A stretch of DNA of 64,000 bases. Source: Methylopila jiangsuensis (GTDB lineage: Bacteria; Pseudomonadota; Alphaproteobacteria; Rhizobiales; Methylopilaceae). The position numbers and the translations under genes were made by a program. Position 1 is the first letter of the stretch; every line of letters starts with the position of its first letter. Shown here piece after piece: positions 2,680-34,780 of this stretch. The notes under the pieces were generated by a model, which was not told the origin of the DNA, did no database searches, and saw nothing but the letters and a program-made list of their open reading frames with translations. Where the stretch lies: positions 124,001 through 188,000 of the forward strand of contig NZ_BSFK01000005.1 of assembly GCF_027922305.1 (NCBI RefSeq), written 5' to 3'.

Positions 2680-4425
2680 ATGTCGCAGCCGACGTCCAAG
2701 CTCAGCTCCGGCGCCAAGGCGCTGGAGCGCGTGCGCAAGGAGATCAAGCCGGCCTTCTGGCTGCTGGCGGTGTTCTCCATCGCCATCAACCTGCTGCTGC
2801 TGGTGCCCTCCGTCTATATGATGCAGGTCTATGACCGCGTGCTGCGCAGCGCCGTGATCGAGACGCTGATCTACATCACCCTGATGGCCGCGGCCGCGGT
2901 CGCGGTCTACGCCGCGCTGGAGGCGATCCGCCTGCGGGCGCTGGCCCGCATCGGCGAATGGATCGAGGACACGCTGTTCGAGCCGGTGTTCGCCGCCGCC
3001 ATGGGCGCGGAGCAGGGGCTGGTGAAGGCGAGCGGCGCCGGCGAGGGCACCCCCTTCAACGACCTGCGCACCGTGCGCAGCTTCCTGTCCGGCCCCACGC
3101 TGCCGTCGCTGTGCGACACGCCGTGGATGCCGCTGTTCCTGATCTGCTGCGCCATCATCCATCCCTATCTCGGCCTGCTCGGCCTCGTGTTCTCCATCCT
3201 GATCATCGCGCTGGCGCTGGTGAACGACCGCATGACGCGGCCGGCCGCGGAGAAGGTGGCGCAGGGCCATCAGGAGGCGCAGCGGGTGCTGGCGGAGGCC
3301 GCGCGCAACGTGGACAGCGTCGCCGCCATGGGGCTGAGCCGGCCGCTCGCCGACCGCGCCAGCCAGGCCAACGCCCGCTCCACCGCGCTGCTCGGCGAGG
3401 CGACCGACCGCGGCACGGTGATGATCGGCGCCGGCAAGTTCCTGCGCGTGGTAGCGCAGATCTGCACGCTGGCTCTGGGCGCCGCGCTCTCGCTCGAGGG
3501 CCACATCACGCCCGGCGGCATGATCGCGAGCTCGATCCTGCTGTCGCGGGCGCTGGCGCCGCTGGATCAGGCTATCGCCGCCTGGCGCGGCCTGCAGCAG
3601 AGCCGCTCCGCCTGGGGCCGCATCACCAAGCTGCTGGAGGCCTCCCGCGTGCTGGTGGAGGACCCGATCGCCCTGCCGGCGCCGGCGGGCAAGCTCACCG
3701 TCGAGGGCGTGACGCTGATGACGCCGGGCGGCGAGCGGCCGATCCTCGCCGGCGTGAGCTTCGGCGTGGCGCCGGGTTCGAGCCTCGCGCTGATCGGGCC
3801 GTCGGGCTCCGGCAAGAGCACGCTCTGCCGGGTCATCGTCGGCTCGCGCGCGCCGAACCGCGGCGCGGTGCGGCTCGACGGCGGCGACGTGATGCTGTGG
3901 CGCGACGACCAGCGCCGTCGCTACGTCGGCTATCTGGCGCAGGGCACGGAGCTGTTCACCGGACGGGTGCGCGACGTCATCGCCCGCTTCGACGCGCCCG
4001 ACGACGCCAAGGTGGTGGAGGCCGCGAAGCTCGTGGGCTGCCACGATCTCGTTCTCAGCCTGCCGCAGGGCTACGACACGGTGCTCGTGAACGGCGGCGC
4101 CATGCTGTCCGGCGGCCAGCGGCAGCGCATCGCGCTCGCCCGCGCGGTCTATGGCGACACCCGCCTCGTGGTGCTGGACGAGCCGAACTCCGCCCTCGAC
4201 GGCGAGGGCGAAAGGGCGCTGGTGGGCGCGCTCGCGGCGCTGAAGGAGCGGGGCGTCACGGTGGTGCTCGTCACCCACAAGCCGGCGCTGGCGCAGCTCT
4301 GCGACCGGGTCGGCGTCATGACGGCGGGGCAGCTCACGCGCATGGGCCCGCCGACCGAGATCCTGCGCGAGCTGGTGGCGCCGGTGCCCGCCGACGTCCG
4401 CACCGTTCCGGGAGGGGCGCGATGA
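2680..4425 (+). CDS. Type I secretion system permease/ATPase (PrtD family)
   Basis: Inner-membrane ABC exporter of a type I secretion system, driving one-step export of a C-terminally signalled protein (RTX proteins, proteases, surface proteins). The 581 residues hold an N-terminal membrane domain (first hydrophobic segments at roughly 27-70) and a nucleotide-binding domain. The Walker A GPSGSGKST is near residue 372, the signature LSGGQRQRIALARA near 477, and the Walker B LVVLDEPNSALD near 497. There is no N-terminal peptidase domain, so it is of the PrtD/AprD rather than HlyB type. The start is set by a GGGGGA five bases before ATG. It overlaps the fusion-protein gene by four bases. Confidence 0.92.
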   Translation: MSQPTSKLSSGAKALERVRKEIKPAFWLLAVFSIAINLLLLVPSVYMMQVYDRVLRSAVIETLIYITLMAAAAVAVYAALEAIRLRALARIGEWIEDTLFEPVFAAAMGAEQGLVKASGAGEGTPFNDLRTVRSFLSGPTLPSLCDTPWMPLFLICCAIIHPYLGLLGLVFSILIIALALVNDRMTRPAAEKVAQGHQEAQRVLAEAARNVDSVAAMGLSRPLADRASQANARSTALLGEATDRGTVMIGAGKFLRVVAQICTLALGAALSLEGHITPGGMIASSILLSRALAPLDQAIAAWRGLQQSRSAWGRITKLLEASRVLVEDPIALPAPAGKLTVEGVTLMTPGGERPILAGVSFGVAPGSSLALIGPSGSGKSTLCRVIVGSRAPNRGAVRLDGGDVMLWRDDQRRRYVGYLAQGTELFTGRVRDVIARFDAPDDAKVVEAAKLVGCHDLVLSLPQGYDTVLVNGGAMLSGGQRQRIALARAVYGDTRLVVLDEPNSALDGEGERALVGALAALKERGVTVVLVTHKPALAQLCDRVGVMTAGQLTRMGPPTEILRELVAPVPADVRTVPGGAR

Positions 4426-5762
4426 GCGCGAGCGACGAGAACCCGATTCCCCAGCGCCCCCGCGGCCTGACGCTGTCGAGCCGCCTCAAGGGGGTGACGC
4501 TGGCCGGCGGCGTGGTGATCTTTGGCTTCATGGGCGGCTTCACGGTCTGGGCCATGACGGCGCCGCTCGCGGGCGGCGCGGCGGTGCGCGGCGTGGTGGG
4601 CCCGGAAGGCAGCCGCAAGATCGTGCAGCACCTCGAAGGCGGCATCGTGCGCGAGATCCTCGTCAAGGACGGCGATCTGGTGCAGCGCGGCCAGCCGCTG
4701 ATGACGCTGGAGCGCACCCAGGCGCAGGCCATTTACGGCCAGCAGCGCAACACCCTGTCCCGCCGGCTGGCGGAGGCGGCGCGGCTGTCCGCCCAGCTCA
4801 CGGACAAGGACGATATCGACTTCGCCGCGGCGGAGGCGGTGGCGAAGGACGACCCGACGTTCCCGGATTTCGTCGCCGGCCAGCGGGCGCTGTTCGAGAC
4901 CACCCGGCGCGACCAGCAGGAGCGGCAGGAGCTGCTGGAGACGCAGATCAAGCGCCTCGGCGCGCAGGTGGACGCCAACCGCGCCCGCATCGGCGGCTCC
5001 GAGGCCCAGCGCGACCTGATCGACGTGCAGATCGAGGACACGCAGGGGCTGATGGACAAGGGCCTCGCCCGCAAGCCGCTGCTGCTCGACCTGCAGCGCC
5101 GCCGCTCCGAGCTCGACACCGACATCGCCGCCCTGCAGGCGGACATCCGCCGGGCGGAGATCGAGAGCGCCGAGAAGCGCATCGCGCTCCGCAACGCCGT
5201 CACCAGCTACCTGAACGACACTTCCACCGAGCTCGCCAAGGCCCGCTCGGAGATTTCGGCGCTTCACGCCCGGCTCGCCGCCAGCGAGGACGTGCTGAGC
5301 CGCACCCAGGTTCTGGCGCCCGAAACCGGCTACGTGCTGAACCTGAAGCAGAAGACCGTCGGCGGCGTGGTGCGCCCCGGCGACGAGATCCTGGAGATCG
5401 TGCCGACCGAAGGCGATCTGGTGATCGAGGGCCGCCTCGCCGCCCACGACATCCGCAACATCGCCATCGGCCAGAAGGCGCGGGTGTCGTTCCTCACCTT
5501 CGCCCAGCGCGACATGCCCATGATCGACGGCCGGGTCATCACCATCTCCGCCGACATCATCACCGACCAGCAGACCCGCGAAACCTACTACACCGCCAAG
5601 ATCGCGGTGGACCGGGCCGAGTTCGCGAGCTTCGCCTCGCCCTCCGACATGAAGCCCGGCACCCCGGTCGAGGCCTATGTGGAGGCCCGCAAGCGGGTGG
5701 CGATGGACTATCTGATCGACCCGGTGGTGCACTCCTTCCGCCGTTCGTTCCGGGAGGACTGA
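4422..5762 (+). CDS. HlyD/PrtE-family membrane fusion protein of type I secretion
   Basis: Periplasmic adaptor linking the ABC exporter to an outer-membrane TolC-type channel. The 446 residues begin with a short cytoplasmic segment, one membrane anchor (about 20-42), a lipoyl-like half with KIVQHLEGGIVREILVKDGD, a long coiled coil (about 90-280), and a C-terminal barrel/beta region ending VVHSFRRSFRED. The order and family are typical of PrtDE pairs. Neither a TolC-like gene nor an obvious secreted substrate lies within the window, so the substrate is unknown. Translation is coupled to the exporter gene through ATGA. Confidence 0.92.
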   Translation: MSASDENPIPQRPRGLTLSSRLKGVTLAGGVVIFGFMGGFTVWAMTAPLAGGAAVRGVVGPEGSRKIVQHLEGGIVREILVKDGDLVQRGQPLMTLERTQAQAIYGQQRNTLSRRLAEAARLSAQLTDKDDIDFAAAEAVAKDDPTFPDFVAGQRALFETTRRDQQERQELLETQIKRLGAQVDANRARIGGSEAQRDLIDVQIEDTQGLMDKGLARKPLLLDLQRRRSELDTDIAALQADIRRAEIESAEKRIALRNAVTSYLNDTSTELAKARSEISALHARLAASEDVLSRTQVLAPETGYVLNLKQKTVGGVVRPGDEILEIVPTEGDLVIEGRLAAHDIRNIAIGQKARVSFLTFAQRDMPMIDGRVITISADIITDQQTRETYYTAKIAVDRAEFASFASPSDMKPGTPVEAYVEARKRVAMDYLIDPVVHSFRRSFRED

Positions 5763-5813: not shown

Positions 5814-5839
5814 GGAACCGCGACGCCCCGACGGTTGTT
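5814..5839 (+). promoter_or_regulatory. Probable EcfG-type general-stress promoter
   Basis: GGAAC at 5814-5818, a 17-base spacer and TGTT at 5836-5839. This is one base off the alphaproteobacterial EcfG pattern GGAAC-N16/17-CGTT. It sits 62 bases before the start of a general-stress-type flavin protein. A stem (CGCCGG 5857-5862, CCGGCG 5871-5876) lies in the leader. Confidence 0.5.
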
Positions 5840-5901: not shown

Positions 5902-6387
5902 ATGACCGACCGCGACGCCGCCCGCGTGTGGGACCTCGTCGACGACATCGGCGTCTGCATGCTGACGTCGAAGGACGGGGGCGCCCTGCGGGCCCGGCCC
6001 ATGCACGCCATGGCGGACCGGGAGGAGGGCGCGATCGCCTTCTTCACCGACGCCCGCGCGCACAAGGACGACGAGATCGCCGCCGATCCGGAGGTGTGCC
6101 TCGCCTTCTCCAAGCCGAACGCGAACGCCTACGTCTCGCTGTCCGGCGAGGCCACGGTGACGGCGGACCGCGCCGAGATCGAGCGCCACTGGAGCGAGAT
6201 GGCCAAGACCTGGTTCCCGGACGGGCCGGGCGACCCCAACCTGCGGCTGCTCACAGTGCGGCCCCAGTCGGCGGAATACTGGGACGGCAAGTCCAACCCC
6301 GTGGCGGTGGCGTTCGAGATCGCAAAGGCGCGGATCAAGCATGAGCGCCCGGACCTCGGCGACAACGGGAAGGTCTCGCTCACGTGA
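5902..6387 (+). CDS. Pyridoxamine 5'-phosphate oxidase-fold (general stress protein 26-like) flavin protein
   Basis: A split-barrel FMN/F420-binding protein of the pyridoxamine-phosphate-oxidase-related family, close in style to general stress protein 26; the substrate is not known. The 161 residues include the N-terminal barrel strand GVCMLTSKDGGALRARPMH, the loop IAFFTDARAHKDDEIAADP and the tryptophan-containing C-terminus (SAEYWDGKSNP). A GGAAGGAG ribosome site precedes the ATG. It overlaps the next gene by four bases and lies behind an EcfG-like promoter, which fits the stress association of the family. Confidence 0.85.
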   Translation: MTDRDAARVWDLVDDIGVCMLTSKDGGALRARPMHAMADREEGAIAFFTDARAHKDDEIAADPEVCLAFSKPNANAYVSLSGEATVTADRAEIERHWSEMAKTWFPDGPGDPNLRLLTVRPQSAEYWDGKSNPVAVAFEIAKARIKHERPDLGDNGKVSLT

Positions 6388-7616
6388 GCCTCGTCGACGA
6401 GGGCGGGCCGCTCGACATCACGGCCGGGCAGAAGCCGCTTATCGCGGCCCGGCCCGCCCGCGCGCCCATCTCGTCGATGCTCGACGCGGGGGCCAAGGTC
6501 GCCTGCATCGGGCTGTTCGTCATCGTGCTCTCCGCCGCGCTGAAGCTCGCGGCGGAGATTCTCGTGCCCATGACGCTCGCCATCATCGTCGGGCTGCTGC
6601 TCGGGCCCGGCATCGGGCGGCTGGAAAAGCGCGGCCTGTCGTCGACCGCGAGCGCGCTGCTGGTGGTGCTCGCGCTGTTCGGGCTGATCTATCTCGCGGC
6701 CTACGCCTTCTCCATGCCGCTGCAGAGCTGGATCGACCGGGCGCCGGAGCTGTGGACCGCGCTGCAGAAGCGCGTGGTGGAGATGCGCTCCACCTTCCTT
6801 CAGATCAAGCAGGTGTCGGAATCGCTCGAGCGCGTCACCAGCATGGGCGACGACAGCGCGCCCAAGGTGGTGCTGCAGGGCGCGGGCCTGCTGTCGAGCG
6901 CGGCGCTCAGCGCCCCGGCGGTCATCGGCCAGGCGGCGCTGTTCGCCTGCACGCTGTTCTTCTACCTCGCCACCCGCAGCTCCATCCGCACCGGCCTGCT
7001 CAGCATGTGCCTCGGCCGCCGCGCCCAGCTCACCGCCGGCCGCATCATGCGGGACGTGGAGGCGCGGGTGTCGGACTATCTGGTCACGATCACCGTCATC
7101 AACATCGCGCTCGGGCTCGCGACGGCGCTCGCCATGTGGATGATCGGCATGCCGAGTCCGGCGCTGTGGGGCGCGCTGGCCTTCGCGCTGAACTATGCGC
7201 CGTTCCTCGGGCCGGCGGCGCTGACGCTCATCCTGGTCGGCGTCAGCCTCGTCACCTTCAAGACCGCGCTCGCCATCGCCGCGCCGCCGCTCGCCTTCGT
7301 GGCTCTGACCTTCATCGAGGGCAACATCCTGACCCCGATGATCCTCGGCCGCCGCTTCACCATCAACCCGCTGCTGGTGCTCGCGGCTTTGGCGTTCTGG
7401 CTGTGGCTGTGGGGGCCGGTGGGCGCGTTCCTCGCCGCCCCGCTGCTGGTGATCGCGCTGGTGCTCACCAAGCATCTCATCCTGCCGCATGTGGCGCGCC
7501 GGGAGGAGAAGGAGCGCTCCACCGCGCGCCGTTCCCGCCGTATGGCGCGGAAAGCCCGGCGCATGGGCGCGCCGGTGACGGCCGCCGCGCGCCCCGCGCC
7601 CGCGCCGGCGGAGTGA
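6384..7616 (+). CDS. AI-2E family transporter (PerM-type membrane protein)
   Basis: A 410-residue polytopic membrane protein of the AI-2 exporter/PerM family. Members have been linked to autoinducer-2 export, Na+/H+ exchange or permease roles, and the specific solute cannot be read from sequence. Features seen: a hydrophobic N-terminal pair of segments (about 32-80), a long amphipathic middle region, and the C-terminal cluster of helices with ALNYAPFLGPAALTLILVG and the family motif EGNILTPMILGRR. The tail is basic. It starts with GTG inside the stop codon of the flavin-protein gene (GTGA), so the two are cotranscribed and probably both stress-induced. Confidence 0.88.
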   Translation: MSLVDEGGPLDITAGQKPLIAARPARAPISSMLDAGAKVACIGLFVIVLSAALKLAAEILVPMTLAIIVGLLLGPGIGRLEKRGLSSTASALLVVLALFGLIYLAAYAFSMPLQSWIDRAPELWTALQKRVVEMRSTFLQIKQVSESLERVTSMGDDSAPKVVLQGAGLLSSAALSAPAVIGQAALFACTLFFYLATRSSIRTGLLSMCLGRRAQLTAGRIMRDVEARVSDYLVTITVINIALGLATALAMWMIGMPSPALWGALAFALNYAPFLGPAALTLILVGVSLVTFKTALAIAAPPLAFVALTFIEGNILTPMILGRRFTINPLLVLAALAFWLWLWGPVGAFLAAPLLVIALVLTKHLILPHVARREEKERSTARRSRRMARKARRMGAPVTAAARPAPAPAE

Positions 7617-7775: not shown

Positions 7776-7815
7776 AAGTCGTGGATGCCCGAGACAAGCT
7801 CGGGCATGACGGCGA
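7776..7815. repeat. REP-like palindromic element, second copy
   Basis: A single arm of the same repeat as at 147-184. From 7777 it reads AGTCGTGGATGCCCGAGAC and continues through CTCGGGC to the ATGACGGCGA end, with one base different in the loop. It lies in the 410-base gap 7617-8026. The only other signal I see in that gap is the EcfG-type promoter at its right end. Confidence 0.75.
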
Positions 7816-7963: not shown

Positions 7964-7989
7964 GGAACCACGCGGCGGCCTAGGCCGTT
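7964..7989 (+). promoter_or_regulatory. EcfG-type general-stress promoter
   Basis: GGAAC at 7964-7968, exactly 17 bases, then CGTT at 7986-7989: a full match to the alphaproteobacterial EcfG promoter pattern. The predicted transcript would begin near 7996, giving a leader of about 30 bases before the proline-rich gene at 8027. Confidence 0.7.
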
Positions 7990-8026
7990 CTCCCACAAAG
8001 CAAAAATCGTTTGAAGGGAGACGCCC

Positions 8027-8197
8027 ATGACTGACGGACCGAACGTTCCAAACCCGCCCATGCCCGGCGAGCCGCCGCTCCCGCCGGACCCTACCCCGGT
8101 GGAGGAGCCGGACGTGACGGACGATCCGGCGACCGACCCGTCGATTGACGAGCCGCTGCGGCCTCAGGAGCCGCCGATGGTCGAACCGCCCATGTGA
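8027..8197 (+). CDS. Small acidic proline-rich protein, probably stress-induced
   Basis: A 56-codon reading frame with 20 prolines, about a dozen Asp/Glu, one Arg and no Lys, built from PP and EPP-like units (starts MTDGPNVPNPP, ends EPPMVEPPM). There is no signal peptide or membrane segment; it should be disordered and cytoplasmic. Evidence that it is real: a strong ribosome site GAAGGGAG six bases before ATG, a full EcfG-type promoter just upstream, and a terminator-like stem right after the stop. I do not recognise a family. The biased composition could arise by chance in GC-rich DNA, but the three flanking signals together argue for a gene. Confidence 0.6.
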   Translation: MTDGPNVPNPPMPGEPPLPPDPTPVEEPDVTDDPATDPSIDEPLRPQEPPMVEPPM

Positions 8198-8217
8198 CCA
8201 CGGCGACGACATCCACT

Positions 8218-8268
8218 GCGGGTGTGGCGTGGCTCCGGATGCGCGGCCGGCGTCACACCCGCATTTTC
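8218..8268 (+). terminator. Terminator-like stem between the proline-rich gene and phaC
   Basis: GCGGGTGTG (8218-8226) pairs perfectly with CACACCCGC (8254-8262) and is followed by ATTTTC. It begins 20 bases after the proline-rich gene's stop and overlaps the last codons of the convergent phaC gene. It may therefore act in both directions. Confidence 0.5.
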
Positions 8269-10385
8269 ACATAGGAGCCCGGCGCGTCCTCGATCGCGGG
8301 GAAGCCTCCCTCGCCGGGAATGCGGGCCTCCGCTTCGCGAGCGTCCATGTCCGCGAGCCAGCCGCGCCAGTCCGGCCACCACGAACCCTTGCGCTCCTCC
8401 GCCTTGGCCAGCCAGTCGTCCAGATCGCCCGCGGGCGCGCCGCCGACCCAGTGCTGGTACTTGTTCTTCGCCGGATGGTTCACGACGCCCGCGATGTGCC
8501 CGGAGCCCGCCAGCACGAAACGCACCGGCCCGCCGAACAGCGTGGCCCCCAGGAAGGCGGATTTCGCCGGCGCGATGTGGTCTTCGCGGGTGGCGAGGTT
8601 GTAGATCGGCGCCGTGACCTTCGACAGGTCGAGCGTCTTGCCGCCCACGTTCATGCGGCCGCCGGCGAGGTCGTTGTTGAGGTAGCAGCCGCGCAGGTAG
8701 AACGAGTGGTTCGCCGCCGGCATGCGGGTGGCGTCCGAGTTCCAGAACAGAAGGTCGAACGGGAACGGCGCCTGGCCCTTGAGGTAGTTGTTGACCACAT
8801 AGGGCCAGATCAGGTCGTTCGGGCGCAGCATGTTGAAGGCGTTGGCCATGCTGGCCCCCTCCAGATAGCCGCGCTGGGCCATCCTGGCCTCCACCGCGGC
8901 GATCTGCGCCTCGTCCACGAACACCTGCAGGTCGCCGGCCTGGCTGAAGTCCACCTGGGTGGTGAAGAAGGTGGCGCTGGCGATGCGGGCGTCGCCGACC
9001 GCCGCCAGATAGGCGAGCGTAACCGCCAGCAGCGTGCCGCCGACGCAGTAGCCGATGGCGTCCACGCTGTCCTCGCCGCTCGCGGCGGTCGCCACCTCCA
9101 CCGCCTTCAGCACGCCGTCGCGCATGTAGTCGTCGAAGCCCATGCGGGCGTGGCGGGCGTCCGGATTGACCCAGGACAGGCAGAACACCGTCAGCCCCTG
9201 GTCCACGCACCACTTGATGAAGCTCTTCTCGGGCGTCAGGTCGAGGATGTAGAACTTGTTGATCCACGGCGGCACGATCAGGATCGGCCGCGCCCGCACC
9301 TTCGGGGTGGAGGGCGCGTACTGGATCAGCTCCATCAGCTCGTTGCGGAAGATGACCTTGCCGGGGGTGGTGGCGAGGTTCTTTCCCACTTCAAAGTTGC
9401 CCGGCATGGTCTGGCGGATGCGCAGGTCGCCCCGGCCGGCGGCGATGTCCTCGGTCAGCATGCGCATGCCGCGCACGAGGTTCTCGCCCTTCTGCGCCAG
9501 CGTCTCGCGGATCAGCTCCGGGTTGGTGGGCACGAAGTTCGACGGCGACACCGCGTTCGAGATCTGCCGCACGTAGAAGCCGGCCTTGTGCCGCGTGTGC
9601 GGATCGAGATCCTGCGCCTCGTCCACCATCCGCTCCGCCCAGCGGGAGGTGTGCAGATAGGCCTGCTTCAGGAAGTCGAAGAACGGGTTCTCCGTCCATT
9701 CCGGGTCCTTGAAGCGGCCGTCCTTCGGGTCTGGCGCGGCCGTGGGCGGCGCGTCTTCGCCGGAGAACCGGCGCAGCGCGTTGGTCCACAGGTCCAGGAA
9801 GCCGCCGGTGAAGGCCGTCTGCGCCTCCACCGTGCGGGCGGGGTCGGACATCCAGCGCTCCGCCACCTGGCCGAGGGTCTTGACCACGTCCACGATCTCG
9901 TTCGTCGCGCCATAGGGCCGCTCGCCGCTTTCACGCGGCCGGAGGTAAGCGCTCAGCGCCTTGCCGCCCTCCTCATAGAGCCGCGCCATGTTGGCGGCGA
10001 AAGCCTCCACATTGGCGGCGCCGAACGGAGCCTCGCGGGTCGTCGCGCTGTCTTCCTCGGGGGAGGGCGGGGCCTCGGCGCGGGGGCGCTCCGCGGCCGG
10101 CTCGGCCTTCGGCGGAGGGGCGGTCTCCGTTTTGGCGCCCGTGGCGGGGCGGCGGGGGGCTCGGGGCGTTCTGGGCGCGGCCGTCGCCGCGGCGCGCTTG
10201 GCCCGCGCCGGTTTCCGGGAGGGCGGTTTGGGAGCGTCCTCAGCCGGGGCCGGGGCCTCCGCCGCGACCTCGACCGGGCGCAGAGCGGGCTTCGCCTCCG
10301 CCTTGCTTTCCGGATGGGCGTCATGGGGACGGGGCTGGGCGGGCATGCGGTCCGTCGCCGAGCGTTCCGCGGCGTTGCGGGCCAT
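8253..10385 (-). CDS. phaC: Class I poly(3-hydroxyalkanoate) synthase with long N-terminal tail
   Basis: Polymerises 3-hydroxyacyl-CoA into PHA storage granules. The alpha/beta-hydrolase core carries the synthase lipase-like box GYCVGG with the nucleophile at about Cys447, the Asp region [10 protein letters not shown] and the His region [19 protein letters not shown]. The chain is 710 residues, about 100 longer than the usual class I enzyme. The extra length is an N-terminal stretch (about 1-125) rich in Ala, Pro, Lys and Arg (for example [20 protein letters not shown]), followed by the conserved start of the synthase domain ([20 protein letters not shown]). The start is supported by AGGGAGGT seven bases before ATG. 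No phaZ, phaR or phasin gene is adjacent. Confidence 0.95.
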
Positions 10386-34755: not shown

Positions 34756-34780
34756 GGAACGCGCGCGCGTCGCAGCCGTT
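34756..34780 (+). promoter_or_regulatory. EcfG-type general-stress promoter before the second glgX
   Basis: GGAAC at 34756-34760, 16 bases, CGTT at 34777-34780: a full match to the EcfG pattern. Transcription would start near 34787, about 63 bases before the chosen glgX start. It lies in the gap after the DUF2934 gene. Confidence 0.65.

Follow-up and report, generated by a model that had tools for sequence, protein, structure and literature searches.

The window analyzed here, a stretch of 64,000 nucleotides from Methylopila jiangsuensis, contains a small gene (8027-8197, forward strand) that, judged by its homologues and by pN/pS, is a real conserved coding gene shared by a single genus-level group within the Alphaproteobacteria, and that appears from the sequence upstream of it to be driven by a general-stress (EcfG-type) promoter. 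Its ATG-to-TGA frame encodes a microprotein of 56 amino acids, of which 20 are proline, 13 are aspartate or glutamate and one is basic, for a computed net charge of -12, which bears out the small acidic frame, over one third proline, described in an earlier sequence-only reading of this DNA. Tryptophan, cysteine, tyrosine and phenylalanine are all absent, five proline pairs are present, and the GC3 of the frame is 0.84. Two open reading frames of 40 to 90 amino acids in the window have at least 30% proline, and that of the microprotein is the only one with a net charge of -5 or below. The ribosome-binding site predicted in front of the frame is GAAGGGAG (8013-8020, forward strand), 6 nucleotides 5' of the ATG; by eye, 12 of the 13 genomes of the genus have a GGAG-type sequence ahead of the start that was chosen (the window's and 11 of the 12 others, G007 being the exception). 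The earlier label of undescribed agrees with the searches made: neither Pfam nor NCBIfam nor PHROGs has a family that matches the window protein, a profile of the microprotein had no match among PDB sequences, and none of the titles and abstract openings listed in literature searches concerned it.

The gene stands above chance by its conservation (homologues in 13 of 13 genomes, pN below pS in every pair of copies, and an EcfG-type site before the gene or its upstream neighbors in 13 of 13) and not by its single promoter match. With the window protein alone as the query, matches were obtained in 12 of the 13 Methylopila and Hansschlegelia genomes, its own included, of which several were weak (E = 4.6 in G001), and no match was obtained in G012. 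A profile built from 12 of the 13 copies detected a homologue in all 13 genomes with E-values from 2.7e-27 to 2.1e-14, and the copy of G012, which had been left out of the profile, nevertheless scored 1.3e-14. Aligned by codon, the 13 copies show a pN (median 0.18) lower than the pS (median 0.52) in each of the 78 pairs, differences at the first, second and third codon positions number 733, 627 and 2036 (2036 of 3396 at the third), and length changes preserve the frame; being related by descent, however, the 13 genomes do not test conservation independently. The sequence-only reading had offered a lack of synonymous-biased change in relatives as grounds for giving up the frame, and by these 78 comparisons the frame survives. 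It is very unlikely that the locus produces no functional protein and is instead a conserved stress-induced RNA or a frame that is a by-product of GC-rich sequence, as a short, low-complexity frame with high GC3 might suggest; the third-position bias, the pN and pS values, the frame-keeping length changes and the ribosome sites seen by eye before 12 of 13 starts all argue against it. In two genomes (G008, locus L041, and G010, locus L043) the nearest start lies 57 and 63 nucleotides upstream of the codons of the GPNVP start, predicting an N-terminal extension of about 19 to 21 residues, downstream of the promoter and ribosome site.

The order of genes at the locus is queA-tgt-PrtD-HlyD-(PNPox)-(AI-2E)-microprotein in all 13 genomes, with the genes in parentheses variable. 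On the forward strand of the window, the constant upstream landmarks are a PrtD-type type I secretion ABC transporter (2680-4425, TIGR01842) and a HlyD-type type I secretion adaptor (4422-5762, TIGR01843), followed by a pyridoxamine-5'-phosphate-oxidase-like (PNPox) gene of the Pfam family Pyrid_ox_like (5902-6387, PF16242, E = 2.9e-44) and an AI-2E family transporter (6384-7616, PF01594, E = 5.9e-37). It had been suggested that orthologues be sought by synteny beside phaC, but this landmark was ruled out: phaC adjoins the microprotein gene in the window only, in convergent orientation, and was not found in 16.5-kb slices of the 12 relatives, the constant landmark being the queA-tgt-PrtD-HlyD side. 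Downstream, of the 12 loci covered (those of all genomes except G012), 11 have a tRNA-Lys gene at distances of up to 3 kb, the window's locus being the one without, on the strand opposite to the microprotein in 10 of the 11. Ribosome stalling at proline pairs is associated with EF-P sensing, and the five pairs of the window copy might be those of a regulatory leader peptide that stalls ribosomes and thereby controls a downstream gene; but phaC in the window is convergent, the tRNA-Lys gene is mostly on the opposite strand, and the copy of G012 holds just two proline pairs. This extremely improbable reading was rejected because neither of the downstream genes considered, phaC and tRNA-Lys, is constant in both presence and strand.

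A strong GC-rich stem (8217-8263, forward strand) overlaps the end of the convergent phaC and is a possible terminator shared with it. Of the terminator-like stem proposed earlier, the stem itself holds up (the fold of 8196-8276 has an energy of -36.9 kcal/mol, z = -2.2), but its U tract is weak, consisting of AUUUUC alone, and a terminator scan by its rules found none. Elsewhere in the window, a palindromic element, GATGCCCGAGAC(A/G)AGCTCGGGCATGACG, occurs on the forward strand in two near-identical copies (155-182 and 7784-7811) with 0.00 expected in shuffles, and the second copy is located in the gap before the microprotein gene. Upstream of queA-tgt, just before the start of the window, are two tandem genes of cyclophilin-type peptidyl-prolyl isomerases (L067, 4947-6045), a few kilobases from the microprotein with its 36% proline, which may be a coincidence.

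Within the genomes searched, the microprotein is restricted to the genus. At an E-value of 0.1 the profile matched none of five genomes that represent two further genera of the family and, at an E-value of 0.01, none of the 384 genomes outside the genus in a sample of the order (397 genomes, 13 of them in the genus); in a sample of the class (385 genomes, overlapping the sample of the order) it matched the window's own genome only, also at 0.01. Among 20 loci with weak hits (L011 to L030), an acidic proline-rich frame of 30 to 130 amino acids, as judged by thresholds set by the authors, was found in L012 only, which belongs to a member of the genus (G010). Relatives of the HlyD protein outside the genus were found in 7 of 26 genomes at an E-value of 1e-60 and are just 31-36% identical, and a look at 12 loci with relatives of HlyD or PNPox revealed no small frame that is both acidic and rich in proline. 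No relatives beyond the genus were thus found at the thresholds searched for the family, order and class samples and for the loci adjacent to HlyD and PNPox, with the caveat that low-complexity chains diverge fast and remote relatives could escape.

The predicted promoter before the microprotein gene in the window (GGAAC-N17-CGTT, 7964-7989, forward strand) has its -35 box at 7964-7968 and its -10 box at 7986-7989. Three matches to GGAAC-N16-18-CGTT were found in the window and 1.25 were expected, so a lone match proves nothing, as the sequence-only reading had cautioned with its estimate of about one by chance. Across the gaps between hlyD and the microprotein gene (20 segments totaling 3598 nucleotides, with gaps of less than 25 nucleotides left out, the genes of relatives taken to start where their tblastn matches begin, and the final gap ending at the GPNVP codons), GGAAC-N17-19-GTT occurs at 17 sites that represent all 13 genomes, and on the reverse strand at none. 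Dinucleotide shuffling of these gaps (1000 times) yielded 0.11 sites on average and never sites in more than two genomes, and the gaps between tgt and prtD at the same 13 loci (2660 nucleotides) contain the motif in none of the 13. Permuted motifs (n = 89) were found in a mean of 0.44 genomes; the most frequent, CGGAA/GTT and GGAAC/TTG (8 of 13 genomes each) and GGAAC/TGT (4), differ from the real motif by a one-base shift of one of its halves and hence are not independent. The -10 box is GGTT at 12 of the 17 sites, TGTT at three, CGTT at one and AGTT at one, so that the strict CGTT belongs to the window copy only (1 of 13 genomes). The GTT form was adopted after the relatives had been inspected, and agrees with the published EcfG motif of Sphingomonas melonis Fr1, read later, which reads GGAAC-N17-20-GTT and has examples with GGTT (PMC6599016); flexibility of the -10 box is the title of a section of PMC7083833. 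The proposed consensus EcfG promoter is therefore retained as a class of site common to 13 of 13 genomes, but its CGTT consensus gives way to GGAAC-N17-19-GTT as the better description.

These sites are directly before the microprotein gene (or before the PNPox remnant of G001, described below) in nine genomes. In the other four (G002, G003, G005, G007) a GTT-type site precedes the PNPox gene and not the microprotein gene directly, with an additional one-mismatch site before the microprotein gene in G005. EcfG-type sites precede PNPox in five genomes and AI-2E in three; that of the PNPox-like gene in the window (GGAAC-N18-GTT with TGTT as the -10 box) is at 5814-5839 on the forward strand. The product of this neighbor is a protein of the type known as general stress protein 26 and has no homology to the microprotein. 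Such sites, together with the PrtD and HlyD genes upstream in 13 of 13 genomes, could indicate that the microprotein is an accessory of a neighbor, as partner of the PNPox-like protein, of the AI-2E transporter or of the type I secretion system, but PNPox and AI-2E do not keep company with it. A near full-length PNPox gene lies between HlyD and the microprotein in just 5 of 13 genomes (G000, the window's genome, and G002, G003, G005, G007) and an AI-2E gene in just 5 (G000, G005, G006, G009, G011), compared to 13 of 13 for the microprotein, and neither has a match at the locus in G004, G008, G010 and G012. Eight of the 13 genomes thus lack PNPox at this position if the remnant of G001 is counted as an absence. 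This remnant (L044, 8097-8243) comprises 48 codons in frame with both ends of PNPox recognizable, aligns to PNPox with a score of 59 (none of 500 shuffles scored above 9), and overlaps the microprotein start with its stop codon, the promoter being kept. Full-length PNPox genes are found elsewhere in the genomes of G001, G004 and G010; an EcfG-type site is 74 nucleotides before the match in G001, and 81 nucleotides upstream in G013 of another genus, and is absent within 100 nucleotides upstream of the copies of G004 and G010. G009 and G012 have no PNPox relative at an E-value of 1e-10. The secretion genes, for their part, seem to be outside the stress unit of the microprotein, since the gap between tgt and prtD has no EcfG-type site in any of the 13 genomes. 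A role as accessory of any of these neighbors is thus quite unlikely.

The resemblance of the microprotein to members of the EcfG (PhyR-NepR) regulon consists of the GGAAC-N17-20-GTT motif, and the table of EcfG-dependent genes of S. melonis Fr1 contains many hypothetical proteins as well as general stress protein 26 (PMC6599016); the difference is that no published target has been matched to the microprotein, and EcfG control is here deduced from sequence only. NepR, of the NepR-PhyR-EcfG switch, was over the cut-off in all 13 genomes of the genus. An EcfG-type site within 700 nucleotides before nepR was found in just 2 of 13, which speaks against EcfG control; for calibration, genome-wide counts and the genes behind consensus sites were used instead. 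The window's genome (G000, 3.7 Mb) contains 60 sites of the form GGAAC-N16-17-CGTT versus 16 of the reversed pattern; many of the 60 are within long frames, and only 30 became loci. Ten genes behind such sites, chosen by eye as plausible and thus indicative of likely targets rather than an unbiased test, include five with a Pfam match, and among the genes behind sites are GT20 (of the trehalose-phosphate-synthase type), CBM48/alpha-amylase, DUF1236 and DUF3072. Within the window, a full EcfG-type match at 34756-34780 (forward strand) precedes a gene with CBM48 and alpha-amylase domains (GlgX-like), which is likely a further stress gene.

The chain that this gene encodes is probably unfolded, to judge from its composition. 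In the five copies computed (the window and four relatives, of 13), proline makes up 33-38% of residues, net charge is -10 to -14, and mean hydropathy places every copy in the disordered region of the charge-hydropathy plot. AlphaFold2, given six sequences, predicted an extended chain with no helix of four and no strand of three residues (pTM 0.19). The disordered polyproline chain foreseen in the sequence-only reading therefore agrees with composition, but less well with the mean pLDDT of 76, a fairly high value if the whole chain is disordered. Hydrophilins and LEA-like proteins are small, hydrophilic, predicted to be disordered and linked to stress, and hydrophilins are defined by a glycine content above about 6% together with high hydrophilicity. 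The microprotein is likewise small, hydrophilic, predicted to be disordered and stress-linked, but differs from them in its very high proline content, strong acidity and absence of a family match, and in the low glycine of the window copy (3.6%; glycine is above 6% in three of the five computed copies).

In 12 aligned copies, 18 columns are invariant, comprising 14 prolines plus one each of valine, aspartate, isoleucine and glutamate, and the conservation could be partly compositional, 14 of the 18 being proline. This proline share, the composition and charge of the five computed copies and the stress-type promoter would all suit a bulk stress protectant: a disordered acidic chain, made in quantity, whose composition alone would shield proteins or membranes, with no need of a specific partner. 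The same 12 copies also have core positions other than proline (D, N, V/I, S and E) that are invariant or nearly so, which is more than composition would need, and bulk protection is a possible but somewhat improbable role. The majority sequence of the core, downstream of the GPNVP start, is VPVQDPDIVPNPDPxIDPSIDEP, from which the window copy is by eye the furthest departure. Because these positions are conserved besides composition, a binding motif is favored over bulk shielding, tempered by the share of proline among the invariant columns, and the conserved order of residues leans towards a ligand rather than a protective function.

We infer EcfG dependence, disorder and the existence of a partner, and consider the chances about even that the microprotein is a small, disordered, acidic, polyproline-like general-stress protein that docks by a conserved linear motif. 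Under stress, NepR would release the sigma factor EcfG, which would direct transcription from the microprotein's own promoter or from the promoter before the PNPox or AI-2E genes; the resulting protein would be acidic and extended, resembling a polyproline-II chain, and the core after its GPNVP start would be the linear motif that docks to a specific partner in stressed cells. A bolder proposal, which we regard as unlikely though conceivable, is that of a genus-specific stress effector, a disordered acidic polyproline peptide with one linear motif for one defined partner, present in all genomes of the genus that were searched, around which enzyme and transporter neighbors come and go. The microprotein would be an orphan member of a well-known type of regulon rather than a new kind of system, and unnamed small proteins are common among the general-stress-response targets tabulated in PMC6599016. 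Its sequence is compact and, like its promoter, conserved in genera that have cultured strains (Methylopila and Hansschlegelia), so that its function is experimentally tractable, and it would show that a single genus can have general-stress effectors of its own.
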